Below, one piece after another: positions 25,956 through 33,705 of a DNA stretch of 64,000 bases. The DNA is from Saccharopolyspora gloriosae. GTDB taxonomy: Bacteria; Actinomycetota; Actinomycetes; Mycobacteriales; Pseudonocardiaceae. Position 1 is the first letter of the stretch. Every line of letters begins with the position of its first letter. The notes beneath the pieces are model-generated. The model did not search any database and was not told where the DNA came from. It was given only the letters and a program-made list of their open reading frames with translations. Made by a program: the position numbers and the translations under genes. The stretch lies in assembly GCF_022828475.1 (NCBI RefSeq), contig NZ_CP059557.1:6805470-6869469 (forward strand). The letters run 5' to 3'.

Positions 25956-27152
25956 TCAAGCGAACACGACCGCATTGCGCCCGGAGGCTTTCGCCGTCAA
26001 CAACGCGGCATCCGCCGCCACCAGCAGATCGGGCAATTCGTAGCCGAACCGCTTCGTGGTGGCCGCCCCGATGCTCACCGTCAGACCAACGAGCTCGCGG
26101 CGCTCGCCCATGGTGTCGTGGGTCGTCACCGACAGCGCCGCGGTGGACAACCGCATCCGCTCCGCCACGGCATTCGCCACCTCCACGCAGGCGTTCGGGA
26201 GCAGCACCACGAACTCCTCGCCGCCGAACCTGCCGACCAGGTCCTCCTTGCGCACGCTGCCGCGCAGCATCTCGGCCACCGCGACCAGCACCGCGTCGCC
26301 CGCCAAGTGCCCCACCTCGTCGTTGACGCGTTTGAAGTGGTCCAGGTCCAGCAGCAGCAGAGCCGCGCCGCGCTGTCTGGCGCAGGCCCGCCGCAGCCCG
26401 GCGCGGGCGACCCGGTCCCAGTGCAGCGAGTTCGCCAGTCCCGTCTTGCCGTCGCGCTGCGCCGAACGCCGCCAGTGCGGCAGCTGGCCGGCCAGATCCA
26501 GCAGCGCCAGCATCGGCGCCGCCAGCACGGCCACGCTCGGTTCGCGCAGTATCGCCATGCCCAGCACCCCGCCGAAGCAGGCGGCGACGACACCCAGCAG
26601 CGCATCGATCGGCTCGCCGACCACGTCCTCGCGCGCCGCGTCGGGATCGCGCAGCCACAACCCGATCGCGACCAGCACGGCCCGCACCAGCAGCAACGCG
26701 GCACCCGCGAGCAGAATCAGCAGCGGATTCCACGCGGGGTCGTGCCAGCCGAGGATCCCGCGGGCGGCGAACACCGCGAGGGCCGTCGCCGCCGCGCCGA
26801 ACAACCAGCGGTGCGGATCGGGCCGGGCCTCCAGCACGCCGTGCAGCGCGGGACCGAGCAGCAACAGGACCAGCAGGTTCGGCGGCAGGGTGAGCCCGCC
26901 CGCCGCCAGGTAGGCGATGTGCACCGTCCACGGGTCGCGGCGAATACCGCTGCGCAGGTGCAGGGACACGGAGGTGGCGACGATGACGGCGGTCGTGGTG
27001 CCGCCGAGCATCGTGAAGCGCAGCCATTCCGCGGGCGTGGGCGGCGAGTTCAACGCCAGTACCGGGAGGACCAGTCCGATGGCGGCGGCTTGGGTGAGCA
27101 GCACGTGCAGCAGTGCTGGTGCCCGGAGCCGCCATAGGGGCCACGGCGCCAT
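25956..27152 (-). CDS. membrane diguanylate cyclase (GGEEF) with inhibitory site
   Basis: Makes cyclic di-GMP from two GTP. The product is 398 residues. The first 230 or so contain about seven hydrophobic segments, a membrane sensor resembling MASE-type modules. The GGDEF domain follows, with DGKTGLANSLHWDR, LLDLDHFKRVNDEVGH (metal Asp, Lys, Asn and Asp all kept) and GRFGGEEFVVLLP. RKED lies 5 residues before GGEEF and fits the RxxD product-inhibition site. All catalytic positions look intact, unlike the GGDEF protein at 19.1 kb. There is no EAL domain. The ATG has GAGGAA upstream. Confidence 0.9.
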   Translation of the reverse strand: MAPWPLWRLRAPALLHVLLTQAAAIGLVLPVLALNSPPTPAEWLRFTMLGGTTTAVIVATSVSLHLRSGIRRDPWTVHIAYLAAGGLTLPPNLLVLLLLGPALHGVLEARPDPHRWLFGAAATALAVFAARGILGWHDPAWNPLLILLAGAALLLVRAVLVAIGLWLRDPDAAREDVVGEPIDALLGVVAACFGGVLGMAILREPSVAVLAAPMLALLDLAGQLPHWRRSAQRDGKTGLANSLHWDRVARAGLRRACARQRGAALLLLDLDHFKRVNDEVGHLAGDAVLVAVAEMLRGSVRKEDLVGRFGGEEFVVLLPNACVEVANAVAERMRLSTAALSVTTHDTMGERRELVGLTVSIGAATTKRFGYELPDLLVAADAALLTAKASGRNAVVFA

Positions 27153-27425: not shown

Positions 27426-28754
27426 GTGGCCATGCCGAAGACCACCCCGCCACCACAACGGCTCCGCGTCGCCGATGGGCGCACGCCGTTGTGGCGCGCG
27501 CACAACTTCTTCCGCACCGTCGGACTCATTTACGCGATCGTCTGGTTCGGGATGCAGGTCCCGCACTACGAGCGCCCGGCGCTGGCGACCCTCGAAATCG
27601 TGATCATGATCGGGTGGACCGTGTTCACCGTTCGGCGGTTCCGGCACCGAGAGGGCCGCACGAACACCCTCGTGCTCATCGACCAGGTGCTGGTCTCCAC
27701 GCTGTTCCTCGGCAACCAGCTGATCATGACCCCCGCGCAGTCGGACGGCATGATCCCCTCGGTGACCACCATGTGGCAGCCGTCGATGGTGACGCTCGCG
27801 GGCGTGCAGTGGGGCTGGCTGGGCGGCGGCATCTCCGGCGCGGTCTCCGCGCTGATCAACTTCCTGAACCGGGACAGCTTCGAAGCGCTGATGTTCCAGG
27901 ACGCCGTGCTCCTGATCGGCTCCGGATTGCTGTACGGGCTGGCCGCCGACACCGCCCGTCGCTCCACCGAACGGCTCAGCCAGGCGTTGCGCACCGAAGC
28001 GGCGACCGCCGAACGGGAACGGCTCGCCCGCTCCATCCACGACAGCGTGCTGCAGGTGCTGGCGCGGGTGCGCAACCGCGGCGTCGAACTGGGCGGGGAG
28101 GCGGCCGAACTCGCCCGGCTCGCCGGGGAGCAGGAGATCGCACTGCGCTCCCTGGTCGCGGCCGGACCGCCCGAGCACGATCCGGGCGGCGAGATCGACC
28201 TCGTCGCCCGCCTGCAAGTGCTGCGCACCGGCAAGGTCCAAGTGTCCGTCCCGGCGACCGAGGTCCGGTTACCCGAGCAGAACGGATCGGACGTGCTCTC
28301 GATCGTGCGGGAGGCGTTGGAGAACGTCGACCGGCACGCGGGACCGGATGCCCGCGCCTGGGTCTTGCTCGAAGAGCTGCCGGACGAGATCGTGATCAGT
28401 GTCCGGGACGATGGACCTGGCATCGCCGAAGGCAGGCTGGACGAGGCGGCGGCGGAAGGACGCATGGGCGTGGCCCAGTCCATCCGCGGCCGGGTCGAGC
28501 ATCTCGGCGGCACGATCTCCCTGGACACCACGCCGGGAGAAGGAACCGAGTGGGAGGTCCGGTTACCGCGCCCGACCACGCCCCCCGGCCGGGGGGCGAA
28601 CGGACGGGCGAGAAAGCGGATGTTCACCCGGCGGACGGCGGATCCCGTCCGCCAGGACGCCGCCGACCCGCAGTCCGAGCCACCGCCGGGCTCCGCGACG
28701 AACCCGCCAGACCAGCGAGCCGACCCGGCACCGCGCGGAGGAGGAGAAGGATGA
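27426..28754 (+). CDS. macS: sensor histidine kinase, MacS-like
   Basis: Membrane histidine kinase of 442 residues. About five hydrophobic segments lie in residues 20-185, followed by a dimerisation and phosphoacceptor helix (ERLARSIHDSVLQVLARV, His near residue 205). A HATPase domain has VREALENVDRHAG (N box) and VRDDGPGIAEG (G1 box), and the tail is long and Pro-rich. It resembles the MacS kinases of actinobacterial MacRS systems. GTG at 27426 has GGAAGGAG upstream; longer frames lack such a site. The stop overlaps the regulator start (ATGA), so the two are co-translated. Confidence 0.85.
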   Translation: MAMPKTTPPPQRLRVADGRTPLWRAHNFFRTVGLIYAIVWFGMQVPHYERPALATLEIVIMIGWTVFTVRRFRHREGRTNTLVLIDQVLVSTLFLGNQLIMTPAQSDGMIPSVTTMWQPSMVTLAGVQWGWLGGGISGAVSALINFLNRDSFEALMFQDAVLLIGSGLLYGLAADTARRSTERLSQALRTEAATAERERLARSIHDSVLQVLARVRNRGVELGGEAAELARLAGEQEIALRSLVAAGPPEHDPGGEIDLVARLQVLRTGKVQVSVPATEVRLPEQNGSDVLSIVREALENVDRHAGPDARAWVLLEELPDEIVISVRDDGPGIAEGRLDEAAAEGRMGVAQSIRGRVEHLGGTISLDTTPGEGTEWEVRLPRPTTPPGRGANGRARKRMFTRRTADPVRQDAADPQSEPPPGSATNPPDQRADPAPRGGGEG

Positions 28755-29425
28755 CCGAACCGCACGTGTCGGTGATGGTGGTCGACGACCATCCGATGTG
28801 GCGCGACGGGGTGTCGCGAGATCTCGCCGAGCGCGGCTTCGAGATCCGGGCCACCAGCGGAGACGCGGTGTCCGCGCTGCGCATCGCGCGGACCGTGCGG
28901 CCCGACGTGGTGCTGATGGACCTCAACCTCGGCGACACCTCCGGGGTGGACGCCTCCCGGCAGATCACCCAGGAGATCCCGGGTACCCGGGTGCTGGTGC
29001 TGTCAGCCAGCGGCGAGCACAGCGACGTGCTGGAGGCGGTGAAAGCAGGCGCCTCCGGCTACCTCGTCAAATCCGCTTCGGTGGACGAACTGGTGGACGC
29101 CGTGCGCCGCACCGCCGCCGGGGACGCCGTGTTCACCGCGGGCCTCGCCGGGCTGGTGCTGGGCGAGTACCGGCGGATGGCGGTGTCACCGGGCACGGAA
29201 ACGCAGGCCCCGCAGCTGACCGACCGGGAGACCGAAGTGCTGCGGCAGGTCGCGAAGGGACTCACCGCACGGCAGATCGCGAACAAGCTGGTCATCTCGC
29301 ACCGGACCGTGGAGAACCACGTGCAGTCGACGCTGCGCAAGCTCCAGCTGCACAACCGGGTCGAACTGGCCCGCTACGCCATCGAGCACGGTCTGGACGC
29401 CGACGGCGAGGCCTCCGAGGACTGA
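28751..29425 (+). CDS. macR: NarL/FixJ-type response regulator, MacR-like
   Basis: Partner of the preceding kinase, 224 residues. The receiver domain covers about residues 5-120, with VVDDHPMWRDG (acidic pocket), VLMDLNLGDTSG (phosphorylated Asp) and GYLVKSAS (Lys). A LuxR-type HTH follows (LTDRETEVLRQVAKGLTARQ, then KLVISHRTVENHVQSTLRKL). The start overlaps the kinase stop by 4 nt. A strong terminator follows about 38 nt after the stop and separates the pair from the small-peptide locus. The regulated genes are not evident from the sequence. Confidence 0.9.
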   Translation: MTEPHVSVMVVDDHPMWRDGVSRDLAERGFEIRATSGDAVSALRIARTVRPDVVLMDLNLGDTSGVDASRQITQEIPGTRVLVLSASGEHSDVLEAVKAGASGYLVKSASVDELVDAVRRTAAGDAVFTAGLAGLVLGEYRRMAVSPGTETQAPQLTDRETEVLRQVAKGLTARQIANKLVISHRTVENHVQSTLRKLQLHNRVELARYAIEHGLDADGEASED

Positions 29426-29599: not shown

Positions 29600-29661
29600 G
29601 TGACGGTCAGGTGACGGGCCTGTGACGCCGGGTCTGGCGTACTTCGCCGCAGCGGTGACAA
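29600..29661 (+). promoter_or_regulatory. SARP-type direct repeats upstream of the peptide genes
   Basis: GTGACGG, GTGACGG and GTGACGC begin at 29600, 29611 and 29622, exactly 11 bp apart. A weaker GTGACAA at 29655 is in the same register (three periods on). Heptamer direct repeats with 11-bp period placed just before a -10 region are how SARP (BTAD) regulators bind. A possible -10, TACTTC, begins at 29640. The gene cluster it precedes encodes a SARP-type regulator at 32146. Confidence 0.6.
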
Positions 29662-29704
29662 CGCCGCGGTTCGAAAGTTCGCCAACTCGATGAGGAGTAC
29701 GACC

Positions 29705-29893
29705 GTGAACGTTTTCGAGATCTCCGAGCTGGAAGTGTCCGCCGAGCTGCTGCCGAAGCGCGAGGCCCTGGGCGGCTTCAACGTCAACGACTACCTGGCC
29801 GTGGTGGCCGCAGAGAACAGCGCCACCTCCGTCGGCATCGGCGGCGACTCCGGGGCCACCGCCGAGCAGGACATCGACCTCAGCCAGGACTGA
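29705..29893 (+). CDS. small peptide 1, candidate RiPP precursor
   Basis: Peptide of 62 residues beginning MNVFEISELEVSAELLP, then KREALGGFNVNDYL. The segment EVSAELLPxREALGG is shared with the next two small genes and would serve as a leader or recognition part. The C-terminal half (VVAAENSATSVGIGG, then DSGATAEQDIDLSQD) is Ala/Gly/Ser/Thr-rich and acidic at the end, without Cys. GTG at 29705 has GAGGAG about 9 nt upstream; an ATG five codons earlier overlaps that site. I recognise no named family. Precursor identity is inferred from size, duplication and the protease next door. Confidence 0.75.
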   Translation: MNVFEISELEVSAELLPKREALGGFNVNDYLAVVAAENSATSVGIGGDSGATAEQDIDLSQD

Positions 29894-29935
29894 CCTTTCC
29901 TGACCGCTGGGTCCGTGGCCCGGACCGTTGGGTGA

Positions 29936-29957
29936 CCTCGGGGTTCCAGCCCCGAGG
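29936..29957 (+). terminator. hairpin between peptides 1 and 2
   Basis: CCTCGGGG-TTCCAG-CCCCGAGG, perfect 8-bp stem about 43 nt after the stop of peptide 1, followed by CACCTTT. It may limit read-through or protect the 3' end of the first message. Confidence 0.5.
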
Positions 29958-30021
29958 CACCTTTCCCGCGGCGATGTCGCCGCGACCTTGTCTCGCCATC
30001 TCTACTTCGTAGGAGCGCATT

Positions 30022-30207
30022 GTGAACTTCGAGATCTCCGAGCAGGAAGTGTCCGCCGAGCTGCTGCCTCAGCGCGAAGCACTGGGCGGCCTCAACTTCA
30101 ACGACTACTTCGCCGTGGTGAGCGCGCACAACACCGCCACCTCGGTCGCCATCGGCGGCGACGCCGGAGCCACCGCCACCCAGAACGTCGACCTCGGACA
30201 AGGCTGA
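30022..30207 (+). CDS. small peptide 2, candidate RiPP precursor
   Basis: Peptide of 61 residues and a close paralogue of peptide 1. It begins MNFEISEQEVSAELLP, then QREALGGLNFNDYF, and continues AVVSAHNTATSVAIGG, DAGATATQNVDLGQG. Differences from peptide 1 cluster in the second half, where acidic residues change to His, Thr and Gln. GTG at 30022 has AGGAG 6 nt upstream. The stops of peptides 1 and 2 are followed by the same TGACCTTTCCTGACCG segment, showing a recent tandem duplication that includes the 3' flank. Confidence 0.75.
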   Translation: MNFEISEQEVSAELLPQREALGGLNFNDYFAVVSAHNTATSVAIGGDAGATATQNVDLGQG

Positions 30208-30283
30208 CCTTTCCTGACCGAGTTCCCGGTCGTGCGCCGTTGAAAACCGGCGGCGCAGGGCTGGACACCACTTAGGAGGACGA

Positions 30284-30445
30284 ATGGACCACCTGGAGCT
30301 GGCCGCGCAGCCGGCCGAGCTGCTGCCCGCCCGCGAGGCCCTCGGCGGCCTCGTCAACGTCAACGTCAACGTGCCGGTGAACATCGCCGTCGCGACAGCC
30401 GTCGGTGGCGACGCCCTCGCGCTCGCCAACCAGTACGGGTACTGA
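30284..30445 (+). CDS. small peptide 3, divergent candidate RiPP precursor
   Basis: Peptide of 53 residues: MDHLELAAQPAELLPAREAL, then GGLVNVNVNVPVNIAVATAV, then GGDALALANQYGY. It keeps the AELLPxREALGG block of peptides 1 and 2, but the following part is different: an alternating Asn-Val stretch, a hydrophobic run and an aromatic C-terminus. ATG at 30284 has a strong AGGAGGA 4 nt upstream. A shared leader with a changed core is the pattern expected of RiPP precursors. It is short enough to be missed by automated annotation. Confidence 0.72.
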   Translation: MDHLELAAQPAELLPAREALGGLVNVNVNVPVNIAVATAVGGDALALANQYGY

Positions 30446-30473
30446 CAGTAAAAGCGGATATCGGACGTGCCGG

Positions 30474-30512
30474 CCGGCCGGAGACGGAGCTCTTCCGTCC
30501 CCGGCCGGTTTT
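30474..30512 (+). terminator. terminator or attenuator between peptide genes and protease
   Basis: A 15-bp stem with one mismatch (30474-30488 with 30494-30508), a 5-nt loop and TTTT immediately after form the classic intrinsic terminator shape. It ends 15 nt before the protease start and overlaps its leader, so only a fraction of transcripts would reach the protease, keeping peptide messages in excess. Confidence 0.7.
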
Positions 30513-30526
30513 CCTGGAGGGGAACA

Positions 30527-32029
30527 ATGTCAGAAGCCACCCACGTCGGGCAGGCAGCACCCACCGAGCCTGACCTTCCCACCGAGCCCGCCCTGCCCGT
30601 CGTGCCCGCGCAAAGCGCCGCACCCGCTCCGCCGGACGCGGCCCGAACCGACGGCAAGACCTCATCGCCGGCCCACACCGCCGCGCCAGGCGACGTCGCG
30701 CCGATCGCCGAGGTGGACGAGCTCTCCGTTCCGCAGCTCGCGGACGGCGTCGCGCTGTGCGGCCGCTACGAAGGCGTCGGGTACACCGAGCCGCGCTACC
30801 TCATCGCCCGCGCCGACGGGCAGATGATCCTGGTGTCCGAGCTGCTCTACCTGGTCGCCTCGCACATCGACGGCCGCCGGGACCTGCGCCAGGTCGCCGA
30901 GCGGGTCACCGCGGCCGGCGGCGCGGAGATCTCCGCGTCCGGAGTGGGCTACCTGGTCAACGACAAGCTGCACCGGCTGGGCGTGGCCGCGCTCGACGAA
31001 ACGGTGGCCGAGGCGCCGCACGCGGACCCGCTGATCTCGCTGGCGATGCGCGGCGTGCTGCTGCCCGCGGGCGGAGTGCGCAAACTGGCCGCCGTGCTGG
31101 CCCCGCTGTTCCAGCCGGTCATCGTGGTCAGCGTGCTGTGCGCGATGGTCGTGGCGGACGTGGCGCTGGTGGCCTCAGGTTCGCTCGATCCGGCGTTCCA
31201 CGCGTCCGTGGGCGACCCGGCGCACGTCCTGATGCTGCTCGCGCTGATCGTCACGTCCACCTTCTTCCACGAGAGCGGGCACGCCGCCGCGTGCCACTAC
31301 GGCGGCGCCCGGCCCGGCGCGATCGGCTTCGGCATCCTGCTGATCTTCCCGGCGTTCTACACCAACGTCACCGACGCCTACCGGCTCGACCGGGCCGGGC
31401 GGTTGCGCACCGACCTGGGCGGGCTGTACTTCAACGCGATCTACATCCTCGCCGTGGCCGGGCTGTTCTGGGCGACCGGTTTCGCGCCGCTGGCGGTGTT
31501 CATCGTGCTCAGCCACGTGCAGATGCTCCAACAGCTGCTGCCGCTGATCCGGCTGGACGGCTACTACATCCTCGGTGACCTGGTGGGAGTGCCGAACCTG
31601 TTCGCGCACGTGCGGCCGTTCCTGCGCAAGCTGATGGGCAAGCAGCGGCCGGGAGAGCAGGTCGGCGCCGGGCTGCGCCCCCAGGTCCGGCTGCTGGTCA
31701 CCTGCTGGGTGGCGGTCGTGGTACCGATGTTGTTCCTCGCGGTGGTGATGCTGTTCCTGCGGATACCCCGGTACTTGGGCACGGCGTTGCAACGCGGGCA
31801 CGACTACTGGATCTCGGGCCTCGACGCGTTCGGGCAGGGCAGCGTCCTGGCCGGATTGCTGGCGGTCCTGTCGTTGTTCGTGCTGCTGCTGCCGTGGATG
31901 GGCGGTATCGCGTTCACCATCCGCGCCGGGCGCCAGCTCGGCCGCTGGTACCGCCGCAAGCACCCCCGCCACATACCGCGCCACCGCGCTCCGGTCACCC
32001 GCAACCGCTTCGGCCTCCGCACGTCATGA
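30527..32029 (+). CDS. M50-type membrane zinc peptidase with N-terminal PqqD-like segment
   Basis: Site-2-protease-like membrane metallopeptidase of 500 residues. A Pro/Ala-rich lead of about 60 residues is followed by a soluble segment (about 62-155) with the helical look of PqqD-like peptide-recognition domains. The membrane part contains HESGH (His 248, Glu 249, His 252) and a later LDGYYILGD motif (Asp 344), the usual zinc site of M50 enzymes. About eight hydrophobic segments and a basic tail follow. ATG at 30527 has GGAGGGG upstream. By position it should process or export the three small peptides; a role as immunity or signalling protease is also possible. Confidence 0.8.
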   Translation: MSEATHVGQAAPTEPDLPTEPALPVVPAQSAAPAPPDAARTDGKTSSPAHTAAPGDVAPIAEVDELSVPQLADGVALCGRYEGVGYTEPRYLIARADGQMILVSELLYLVASHIDGRRDLRQVAERVTAAGGAEISASGVGYLVNDKLHRLGVAALDETVAEAPHADPLISLAMRGVLLPAGGVRKLAAVLAPLFQPVIVVSVLCAMVVADVALVASGSLDPAFHASVGDPAHVLMLLALIVTSTFFHESGHAAACHYGGARPGAIGFGILLIFPAFYTNVTDAYRLDRAGRLRTDLGGLYFNAIYILAVAGLFWATGFAPLAVFIVLSHVQMLQQLLPLIRLDGYYILGDLVGVPNLFAHVRPFLRKLMGKQRPGEQVGAGLRPQVRLLVTCWVAVVVPMLFLAVVMLFLRIPRYLGTALQRGHDYWISGLDAFGQGSVLAGLLAVLSLFVLLLPWMGGIAFTIRAGRQLGRWYRRKHPRHIPRHRAPVTRNRFGLRTS

Positions 32030-32145
32030 CCTGCGGATCTGTCACCTTGCGTAGTCGTGTAACGGCACACCGACACGGCTGCGACGCCACCGGTGACGGG
32101 TCGCGCCTCAGGTGCGGCCGGTCCTTGCCGGACGAAGGGGGAACC

Positions 32146-32916
32146 ATGAGCGAGGGACCTGCGCGCCCGATCCCGCTCCAGCGGCCGCACGCCGCGGAGC
32201 GGCTGCAGCTGACACTGCTCGGTGGGTGGTCGCTGCACTGTGACGGCGCCGGGGTGCCCGTCTCCAGCAACGGTCAGCGGCTGCTCGCACTGCTGGCGCT
32301 GCGCGGTCGGACGCAGCGGGACCTCGTCGCCGGAACGCTGTGGCCGGGCAACGACGACCAGAGTGCGCTGGCGAACCTCCGGACCACGCTGTGGCGGGTG
32401 CGCAGGCGGGTGCCGGGGGCGATCGCCGGCAACGGACCCGAGATCGAGCTGGGGGACCAGGTCTCAGTGGACGTGCACGAACTGACCTCCACGGGGGAAC
32501 GGCTGCTGCGGGACGACCCGGGGGAGCCGATCGCGGACTGGGCCGCGATCGGCCACACCCTGGCCAAGCAGGATCCGCTGCTGCCCGGCTGGTACGAGGA
32601 CTGGGTGCTGACCGAGCGGGAGCGGTTGCAGCAACTCCAGGTGCACGCGCTGGAGATCGCCGCGGAACGGCTGGTGCAGTCCAGCCAGCTCGCGACGGCG
32701 CTCGAAGTGGCACAAGCGGCGACCGTCGTCGAACCGTTCCGCGAGACCGCGCACTGCGCGGTGGTGGAAGTGCTGATCAAGCAGTCGAACCCTGCGCAGG
32801 CCCTGCGCCACTACCGGCGCTACGCGCAACTGCTGGACCGGGAACTGGGCATCGAACCCTCCCGGCGCCTGCGGGAGCTCGTACGGCCGATGCTCGGCGA
32901 TCACGTCCGAGCCTGA
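32146..32916 (+). CDS. BTAD-domain (SARP/AfsR-type) transcriptional regulator
   Basis: DNA-binding activator of 256 residues. A winged-helix OmpR-like part (about 18-105: LTLLGGWSLHCDG, RLLALLALRGR, LANLRTTLWRVRRR) precedes a bacterial transcriptional activation domain (about 110-250: LLPGWYEDWVLTERERL, ALRHYRRYAQLLDRELGIEPS). It lacks the ATPase and TPR parts of large AfsR proteins, so it is the small SARP type that controls biosynthetic clusters. ATG at 32146 has AAGGGGGAA upstream; a longer frame would overlap the protease gene and is not favoured. It is the natural candidate to bind the 11-bp repeats before the peptide genes. Confidence 0.87.
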   Translation: MSEGPARPIPLQRPHAAERLQLTLLGGWSLHCDGAGVPVSSNGQRLLALLALRGRTQRDLVAGTLWPGNDDQSALANLRTTLWRVRRRVPGAIAGNGPEIELGDQVSVDVHELTSTGERLLRDDPGEPIADWAAIGHTLAKQDPLLPGWYEDWVLTERERLQQLQVHALEIAAERLVQSSQLATALEVAQAATVVEPFRETAHCAVVEVLIKQSNPAQALRHYRRYAQLLDRELGIEPSRRLRELVRPMLGDHVRA

Positions 32917-33195: not shown

Positions 33196-33705
33196 CAGGC
33201 ACGGCCTTCGGCCGCCAGGCAAGCGGGGCTTCGCCCGCCCTTCGCGGACTTCGCCGCCAACTGCACGGCTTCGCCGCAAGGCACGGCCTTCGGCCGCGAG
33301 GCAAGCGGGGCTTCGCCCGCCCTTTGCGGGCTTCGCCGCCGAAAGCACGGCTTCGCCGTAAAGCAGGCTTGCTTCGCTTCGCCTTGGCGGGCTTCGCCGC
33401 CGACTGAACGGCTTCGCCGCAAAGCACGGCCTACGGCCGCCAGGCAAGCGGGGCTTCGCCCGCCCTTTGCGGGCTTCGCCGCCGAAAGCACGGCTTCGCC
33501 GTAAAGCAGGCTTGCTTCGCTTCGCCTTGGCGGGCTTCGCCGCCGACTGAACGGCTTCGCCGCAAGACACGGCCTACGGCCGCCAGGCAAGCGGGGCTTC
33601 GCCCGCCCTTTGCGGGCTTCGCCGCCGAAAGCACGGCTTCGCCGTAAAGCAGGCTTGCTTCGCTTGGCGGGCTTCGCTGCCGACTGAACGGCTTTGCCGC
33701 TCGGA
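33196..33705. repeat. TTCG-hairpin array with 143-bp tandem unit
   Basis: About 500 bp of short hairpins of the type CGGC-CTTCGG-CCG and CGGCTTCGCCG. A 143-bp unit starts at 33282, repeats at 33425 and again at 33568; the third copy is shortened, and a partial unit of about 82 bp comes first. Both strands stay open over long stretches because the repeat lacks stops, but composition and repetition argue against coding. It fills the rest of the gap between the SARP gene and ptsI. Confidence 0.8.

Follow-up and report, generated by a model that had tools for sequence, protein, structure and literature searches.

What is made by a run of very small paralogous genes placed directly in front of a membrane protease, and what turns them on? 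The question is raised by a locus of Saccharopolyspora gloriosae that lies in the 64,000-nucleotide stretch of DNA analysed here (assembly GCF_022828475.1, contig NZ_CP059557.1, positions 6,805,470 to 6,869,469; 'the window' throughout), itself part of a 6.88-Mb single-contig genome. The plus-strand order is histidine kinase, response regulator, three peptide genes, M50-type zinc protease and a BTAD-domain regulator of the SARP family. An earlier note, made from the sequence of this stretch, had singled out the three peptides with their shared leader segment, the protease with its PqqD-like N-terminus and the small SARP activator. Our analysis upholds all three elements and suggests, with a probability of roughly 65%, that they form a dedicated precursor-peptide maturation system. 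The SARP would switch on the operon, and the M50 protease, guided by a recognition element (RRE) of the kind found with ribosomally synthesised and post-translationally modified peptides (RiPPs), would remove the leaders to give extracellular, possibly self-assembling peptides. The features concerned are, in order:

29600..29627, plus strand: putative SARP-type operator, three GTGACG direct repeats at exact 11-bp spacing, 0 mismatches
29639..29644, plus strand: conserved GTACT(T/C) block, 12 nt past the third GTGAC, candidate −10 region
29705..29893, plus strand: peptide gene 1 (pep1), 62 aa, GTG start, leader MNVFEISELEVSAELLPKREALGG followed by the core
30022..30207, plus strand: peptide gene 2 (pep2), 61 aa, GTG start, paralogue of gene 1
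30284..30445, plus strand: peptide gene 3 (pep3), 53 aa, ATG start
30527..32029, plus strand: RRE-M50 intramembrane metalloprotease, 500 aa
30815..30988, plus strand: PqqD/RRE-like domain of the M50 protein, about residues 97-154, by hhalign comparison with PqqD
31268..31282, plus strand: HESGH zinc motif of the M50 protein, residues 248-252
32146..32916, plus strand: small SARP-type BTAD activator, 256 aa, Pfam BTAD E 9e-18

The three peptides are very probably real genes. A codon-position gene caller selects all three open reading frames (ORFs), and all three are retained in each of six genomes of the genus, the window included. Across the three species compared pep3 is under strong purifying selection, with seven third-codon-position differences and no amino-acid change between the sister-species loci L002 and L032. 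The first 25 codons of pep1 are almost invariant (dN 0.02, window versus L002/L032), whereas its core diverges (dN 0.14-0.16), and core dN/dS reaches at least 0.8 in seven of nine pep1/pep2 pairs; in pep2 the leader is conserved less strictly than in pep1. An earlier in-frame ATG is available to pep1 at 29690, and the spacing of the GGAG ribosome site suits the GTG start. The conserved leader of all three peptides ends in AELLPxREALGG, while the C-termini are variable (D, G and Y in the window). A constant leader joined to a diverging core is the pattern shown by precursor peptides, and the leader and variable core described in the earlier note are thereby borne out. No Sec signal is evident by eye on the precursors, and neither they nor ten typed relatives match any Pfam or NCBIfam model at a meaningful score.

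The protease is also well preserved. HESGH and LDGYYILGD, the two motifs by which it had been recognised, are both intact in the window protein, and none of 34 short-form and 19 long-form homologues departs from the H, E and H of the first or the D of the second. Together with six hydrophobic segments by hydropathy, these residues identify an M50 protease, while the Pfam M50 model itself gives no match to the window protein. The best NCBIfam match is daptide_HExxH (102 bits, cut-off 300), followed by YydH/LiaK (49 bits, cut-off 225). The segment preceding the membrane part aligns over 57 columns with a profile of 30 PqqD sequences drawn from related genomes (hhalign probability 95%), a score equalled in none of 100 column shuffles. 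This profile-profile comparison supports the assignment of an RRE-like domain to the M50 N-terminus. Searches against solved structures with two of the M50 proteins gave no match. One M50 homologue (L112:7337-9625) has a MinD/ParA-like ATPase domain as its C-terminal continuation (CbiA E 3e-10).

Are these peptides the substrates of this protease? The pairing of the two is phylum-wide in Actinomycetota. Matches to the window M50 were found in 65 of 297 genomes of the family, 60 of 394 of the class and 27 of 246 of the phylum including other classes (the window genome counted each time); the searches scored no more than 3-6 candidates per genome, and these counts are therefore lower bounds. We chose 80 neighbourhoods from the family and class match tables, which with the window and L002 gave 82 loci and 85 M50 places. 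At 79 of these 85 places the M50 gene is preceded by an ORF that has a ribosome site and encodes an LPx[RK] motif, compared with 29 of 336 control genes. Six places fail this rule: L108 ends at a contig edge, and at the other five (L067, L069, L124, L138 and L139) a peptide gene is present that fails the start, spacing, strand or motif requirement. Similarly, all of the family genomes with profile-detected peptides (25 of 297) fall among the 65 with an M50 match. Peptide genes are thus conserved with the protease in related genomes, one of the points on which the earlier note had let its proposal stand or fall. The same arrangement is present in two Streptomyces plasmid records, where peptides and protease are annotated as 'hypothetical protein'.

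Protease clades and peptide types also correspond. On a tree of 81 M50 proteins, the eight peptide labels, which were assigned by the analyst, require seven changes over the 79 labelled rows; with the two unlabelled rows treated as a ninth group there are nine changes, where the minimum is eight and the shuffled mean 49.6. Moreover, six of the genomes retrieved have a second M50 locus that differs in type from the first, and each locus is accompanied by a peptide type of its own (types A and R in G046, G137, G160, G207 and G268; types S and C in G686), which argues that the match does not reflect species history only. Because the pairing is near-constant and the clades match, we infer that the RRE-M50 protease processes the peptides, in agreement with the earlier proposal.

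The steps of this processing can be sketched from better-known proteases. DapP, an RRE-dependent M50 protease, strips the leaders of daptides (PMC10036551; this and the other PMC records are cited from part of their text), and EpeP, the epipeptide M50 protease, is believed to export its substrate as well as cleave it (PMC10885120). By analogy with these two enzymes, the cytosolic PqqD/RRE-like domain would dock the conserved leader, and the intramembrane zinc site would cut near the leader/core border, close to REALGG. The core would then be freed to or across the membrane, perhaps by the M50 protein itself, and the mature, mostly acidic and low-complexity peptides would work outside the cell.

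What turns the operon on is probably the product of the BTAD gene. The 256-aa protein has the domain and size of a small SARP; Pfam reports no N-terminal OmpR-type DNA-binding domain, and the AfsR model gives a weak match over residues 13-249 (E 2e-5). In published SARP binding sites, direct repeats recur every 11 or 22 bp, and 8 bp separate the last one from the −10 element (PMC10936776, PMC10972967). The array in front of pep1 has three such repeats at 11-bp spacing, and a shuffled window would be expected to hold 0.03 matches with at most two mismatches. A GTACT or CTACT block follows the array by 11-12 nt at all 27 triple sites listed; taken as the −10 element, it stands slightly farther from the last repeat than the published 8 bp (PMC10936776).

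The order of peptides, M50 and BTAD is maintained in 19 loci including the window, each with the kinase pair in front and each with the triple array exactly once. The near copies L034/L035 and L046/L047 mean that these loci are not all independent. The co-occurrence with the BTAD gene proposed in the earlier note extends to 22 loci, the additional three (L049, L050 and L051) having the BTAD gene on the other strand, no kinase pair found and a two-repeat GTGAC array upstream, for which the evidence is weaker. L052 has neither a BTAD gene nor a GTGAC array. A search of 16 whole genomes gives 24 triple arrays, at the 16 main loci, before six unlinked LLPxR peptide genes and at two sites elsewhere that form a single orthologous pair (G046/G079), so that 22 of 24 sites precede LLPxR peptides; two matches were found to the reversed pattern. 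The window genome has a single triple array, that of the peptide operon. As the array lies upstream of the peptides and almost nowhere else in the 16 genomes, there is a strong case that it is the putative operator of the BTAD protein and that this SARP acts as the cluster activator, as had been suggested. The small SARP would thus bind the triple 11-bp GTGAC array and turn the peptide operon on. Known small SARPs resemble this arrangement in domain, size and neighbouring triple repeats (PMC10972967, PMC10936776), and the window-type sites differ in preceding peptides, with no antibiotic cluster recognised beside them.

The operator also leads to peptide genes beyond the protease locus. Five related genomes (G129, G160, G173, G207 and G261) each have two additional peptide genes at a distance from the M50 locus, mostly DxDx-rich. 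Seven of these ten satellite genes follow a triple array, two a two-repeat array and one neither; in addition, G208 has four tandem peptides at another site, one of them with a two-repeat array. In these sister species the SARP would be expected to activate the satellites as well, and their products, being unlinked to the M50 gene, would need processing in trans.

Some further observations belong here. At L151, L153, L154, L156 and L158 the satellite genes flank a similar metabolic stretch in five genomes, comprising a pair of 760-775 aa and 158 aa that appears oxidoreductase-like by eye, often with a large 970-aa protein. Another BTAD-type gene (L213:1501-2079, named by eye) begins some 85 bp downstream of the non-peptide triple array of G046/G079. 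Control by the neighbouring MacRS-like kinase pair through a MacR box was considered and rejected; the consensus is matched once, inside pep3 and with three mismatches, which is chance level.

What the released cores might do is suggested by their composition. The sequence types of the peptides are set by the core, and core types differ by M50 clade. Profile comparisons of the peptide types A1-A6, A1-A7 and A6-A2 give hhalign probabilities of 97-99%, indicating homology across genera. The window type matches the type on one Streptomyces plasmid at 98.8% and a type from other genomes of the class at 97.0%. The latter matches a long form of 200-500 aa at 98.9%, while the window type and the long form compared directly give a weak 30.9%. 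Leader-free core-to-core tests exceed 100 shuffles in four of four cases, at modest probabilities (20-72%) in three. These comparisons covered types A1 (44 of the 50 peptides of clusters c2, c25 and c156), A2 (17 of the 19 of c7), A6 and A7; Gly-rich and other cores were left out. Small residues, Asn/Gln/Asp or Gly are abundant in the cores and K and R scarce (median K+R 0-4); the median net charge is below zero in seven of nine clusters, zero in one and +2 in one. Being mostly acidic, of low complexity and different between copies in one genome, the cores are no less compatible with a structural or surface role than with a signal. The earlier note had allowed for signalling or surface use; a surface role may apply, and signalling is not established.

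One pattern recurs in many cores. N-x-A-x-A ... A-x-A-x-Q is found in 32/43, 13/13 and 12/12 peptides of three clusters, and the same signature marks an extracellular-type domain of relatives, where it occurs in 30 of 32 domains (twice in 23) compared with 6 of 1117 other neighbouring proteins, a set that still includes a few singleton peptide genes. In the long-form relatives this domain follows an extra hydrophobic segment of the M50 protein and usually has a CxxC in the turn. In others it is a separate protein beside a shorter M50 with, by eye, a signal-peptide-like N-terminus; the two are one family (pairwise E 2e-29). Neither this secreted domain nor the long peptide form has a meaningful Pfam or NCBIfam match. 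Profile tests of cores against the domain exceed 100 shuffles in two of four cases, the window type being one of them. It is possible that the N-x-A-x-A...A-x-(A)-x-Q pattern of several clusters would fold into packed beta-arches that self-assemble at the surface, a hypothesis for the cores and not a result.

Curli and chaplins are likewise short secreted-type peptides with N/Q/A/S repeat patterns, and the resemblance of the cores to them is one of analogy alone. No peptide or relative matches any such Pfam family, the precursors show no evident signal of the Sec kind, and leader and protease are of another kind. A general hydropathy-alternation signature for beta structure was also considered and rejected.

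In other classes of the phylum, LPxR-type peptides are accompanied by small K/R-rich peptides that lack a leader and show, by eye, the pattern N-A ... Q-x-[IV]-x-Q (L218:3713-3874, L219:293-493, L220:3784-3975 and L221:60-287). The pattern of these small peptides is core-like, and they may be caps or partners.

Several findings weigh against the proposed maturation and assembly. The Pfam PqqD model by itself does not match the window M50, and the M50 tree largely tracks host lineage, so that the matching of clades is partly plain inheritance. Among the neighbours scanned with Pfam, nothing beside the operon was recognised as a daptide-type transporter. The N.A.A...Q pattern was picked after the sequences had been inspected, and none of the 68 peptides in the eight remaining clusters tested contains it. 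The other two tests of cores against the extracellular-type domain were equalled by 7 and 28 of 100 shuffles, and the domain itself was not found in the window genome, one of 18 checked genomes having one. Hydropathy alternation with z >2 is confined mainly to c7 (15/17) and c25 (6/6), where it speaks for beta structure, and reaches 3/43 in the cluster of the window; being absent from most clusters, it is not used as support. A wider version of the proposal, in which RRE-guided intramembrane cleavage without tailoring, a route absent from the literature searched, yields secreted self-assembling surface peptides throughout the phylum, is put forward only tentatively and is rather doubtful. Here cores would be beta-arch, Asp/Val-alternating or Gly-rich, and in some lineages an extracellular cysteine domain, either part of the protease or a secreted neighbour, would copy the core arch as nucleator or receptor.

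Might the peptides instead be signals? The two genes in front of the operon invite this view:

27432..28754, plus strand: histidine kinase with DUF5931, neighbour kept in 19 loci including the window; at most a candidate member of the peptide system
28751..29425, plus strand: LuxR-type response regulator, very conserved in the same 19 loci, known as a neighbour

The M50 protease would free a pheromone sensed by the adjacent DUF5931 kinase, whose regulator would, with the SARP, close a quorum-sensing loop. Both genes flank the operon in those 19 loci and a dedicated activator seems to control the peptides, yet we regard this explanation as unlikely. Kinase and regulator were not found at L049-L052, where peptides and M50 persist, and several different cores occur per genome. 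The response regulator is 85-99% identical to that of the window in the other 18 loci while the cores diverge, as expected for a core gene and not for a co-evolving receptor. Nor does the MacR box lie upstream of the operon.

A second possibility, which we judge to be no stronger, is that the peptides are RiPPs whose tailoring enzymes lie elsewhere in the genome, the M50 protease taking off the leader after modification. RRE-M50 fusions are of the daptide type and, as the satellite peptides show, components of the system need not be linked. On the other hand, no tailoring family was recognised among the window genes scanned with Pfam (24.6-40.0 kb, the scope of all statements on scanned neighbours; the rest of the genome was not searched for such families). 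The earlier observation that no tailoring enzyme is visible therefore holds for this part, and the RiPP features that the earlier note invoked do not justify the label. Besides the core-like secreted domain, no accessory gene was seen to recur beside the M50 gene across lineages, and in the window genome the triple array marks no target but the peptide operon.

The nearest RiPP relatives, the daptides (MpaP/DapP with MpaA), likewise have a site-2-type protease with an N-terminal RRE fusion, next to which several short precursors are encoded, all bearing a conserved leader motif (PMC10036551); their daptide_HExxH family is also the top model for the window protease. However, the window protease scores below the equivalog cut-off, its proposed substrates have the leader xELLPxREAL instead of ELExMEAP and lack a C-terminal Thr, and neither DapB/C/D/M nor an ABC transporter was recognised among the scanned neighbours. 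Daptide membership is rejected on these differences of protease score, leader and neighbours.

A bacteriocin-like antimicrobial function appears less probable still. The GG at the leader end of the window peptides recalls double-glycine leaders, and the M50-matured epipeptide is antimicrobial (PMC10885120, PMC7026026); however, the GG is lost outside the closer relatives, the mostly acidic, K/R-poor cores speak against a classical cationic antimicrobial, and the scanned neighbours include no recognised gene for immunity or for a C39 exporter. The epipeptide protease YydH/LiaK/EpeP is similar in being an intramembrane M50 enzyme that matures, and is thought to export, a short peptide (PMC10885120), and it gives the weak second NCBIfam match. 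It differs from the window protease, which has an RRE-like domain; the precursors are different, and no radical SAM epimerase gene was seen in the scanned neighbours. On the 49-bit score and this absence, epipeptide membership fails as well. Finally, a pearlin-like scaffold, to which residues are added at the C-terminus before the M50 protease cuts them off, as with TglG and TmoG (PMC10885120), is very improbable, as the C-termini vary, conservation sits in the N-terminal leader and no PEARL (dehydratase-like) gene was recognised among the scanned neighbours.

On present evidence the locus would thus appear to work like a daptide-type leader peptidase with its precursors, while being neither daptide nor epipeptide nor RiPP. 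What the analysis adds to the elements recognised earlier is the operator, the peptides encoded as satellites, the spread across the phylum and, in relatives, the extracellular-type domain. We found no description of the peptide-M50 family in the open-licence literature searched, supplements being outside it, nor any occurrence of five leader strings there; the portions available of PMC10036551, PMC12670281, PMC10972967, PMC10936776, PMC7470986, PMC12710340 and PMC10885120 contain no description of the peptides, and an earlier description elsewhere is possible. The system would then represent a large and apparently unnamed precursor-peptide family tied to an RRE-M50 protease across Actinomycetota, reaching two Streptomyces plasmids. 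Here an RRE may serve to take leaders off peptides that undergo no tailoring, in which case RRE recognition would be uncoupled from RiPP chemistry. Since the SARP-type operator is almost unique, the proposal lends itself to direct testing, with one regulator, one promoter, one protease and a set of predicted substrates to which satellites far from the locus belong. Extracellular assembly of the cores, if it occurs, would give Gram-positive bacteria a new means of making surface material.

The surrounding genes are ordinary and encode an AI-2E transporter, a GGDEF protein, a PtsI-like PEP-utilising enzyme, a DUF2339 membrane protein, a glutaredoxin and a TetR regulator. The GGDEF gene (25956-27152) is divergent from the kinase gene and is kept in 18 loci including the window. 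Between the BTAD and PtsI-like genes, positions 33196-33700 hold a tandem array of 3.3 copies of a 143-bp unit with 94% matches, the unit being composed in turn of shorter GGCTTCGCCGCC-like repeats.

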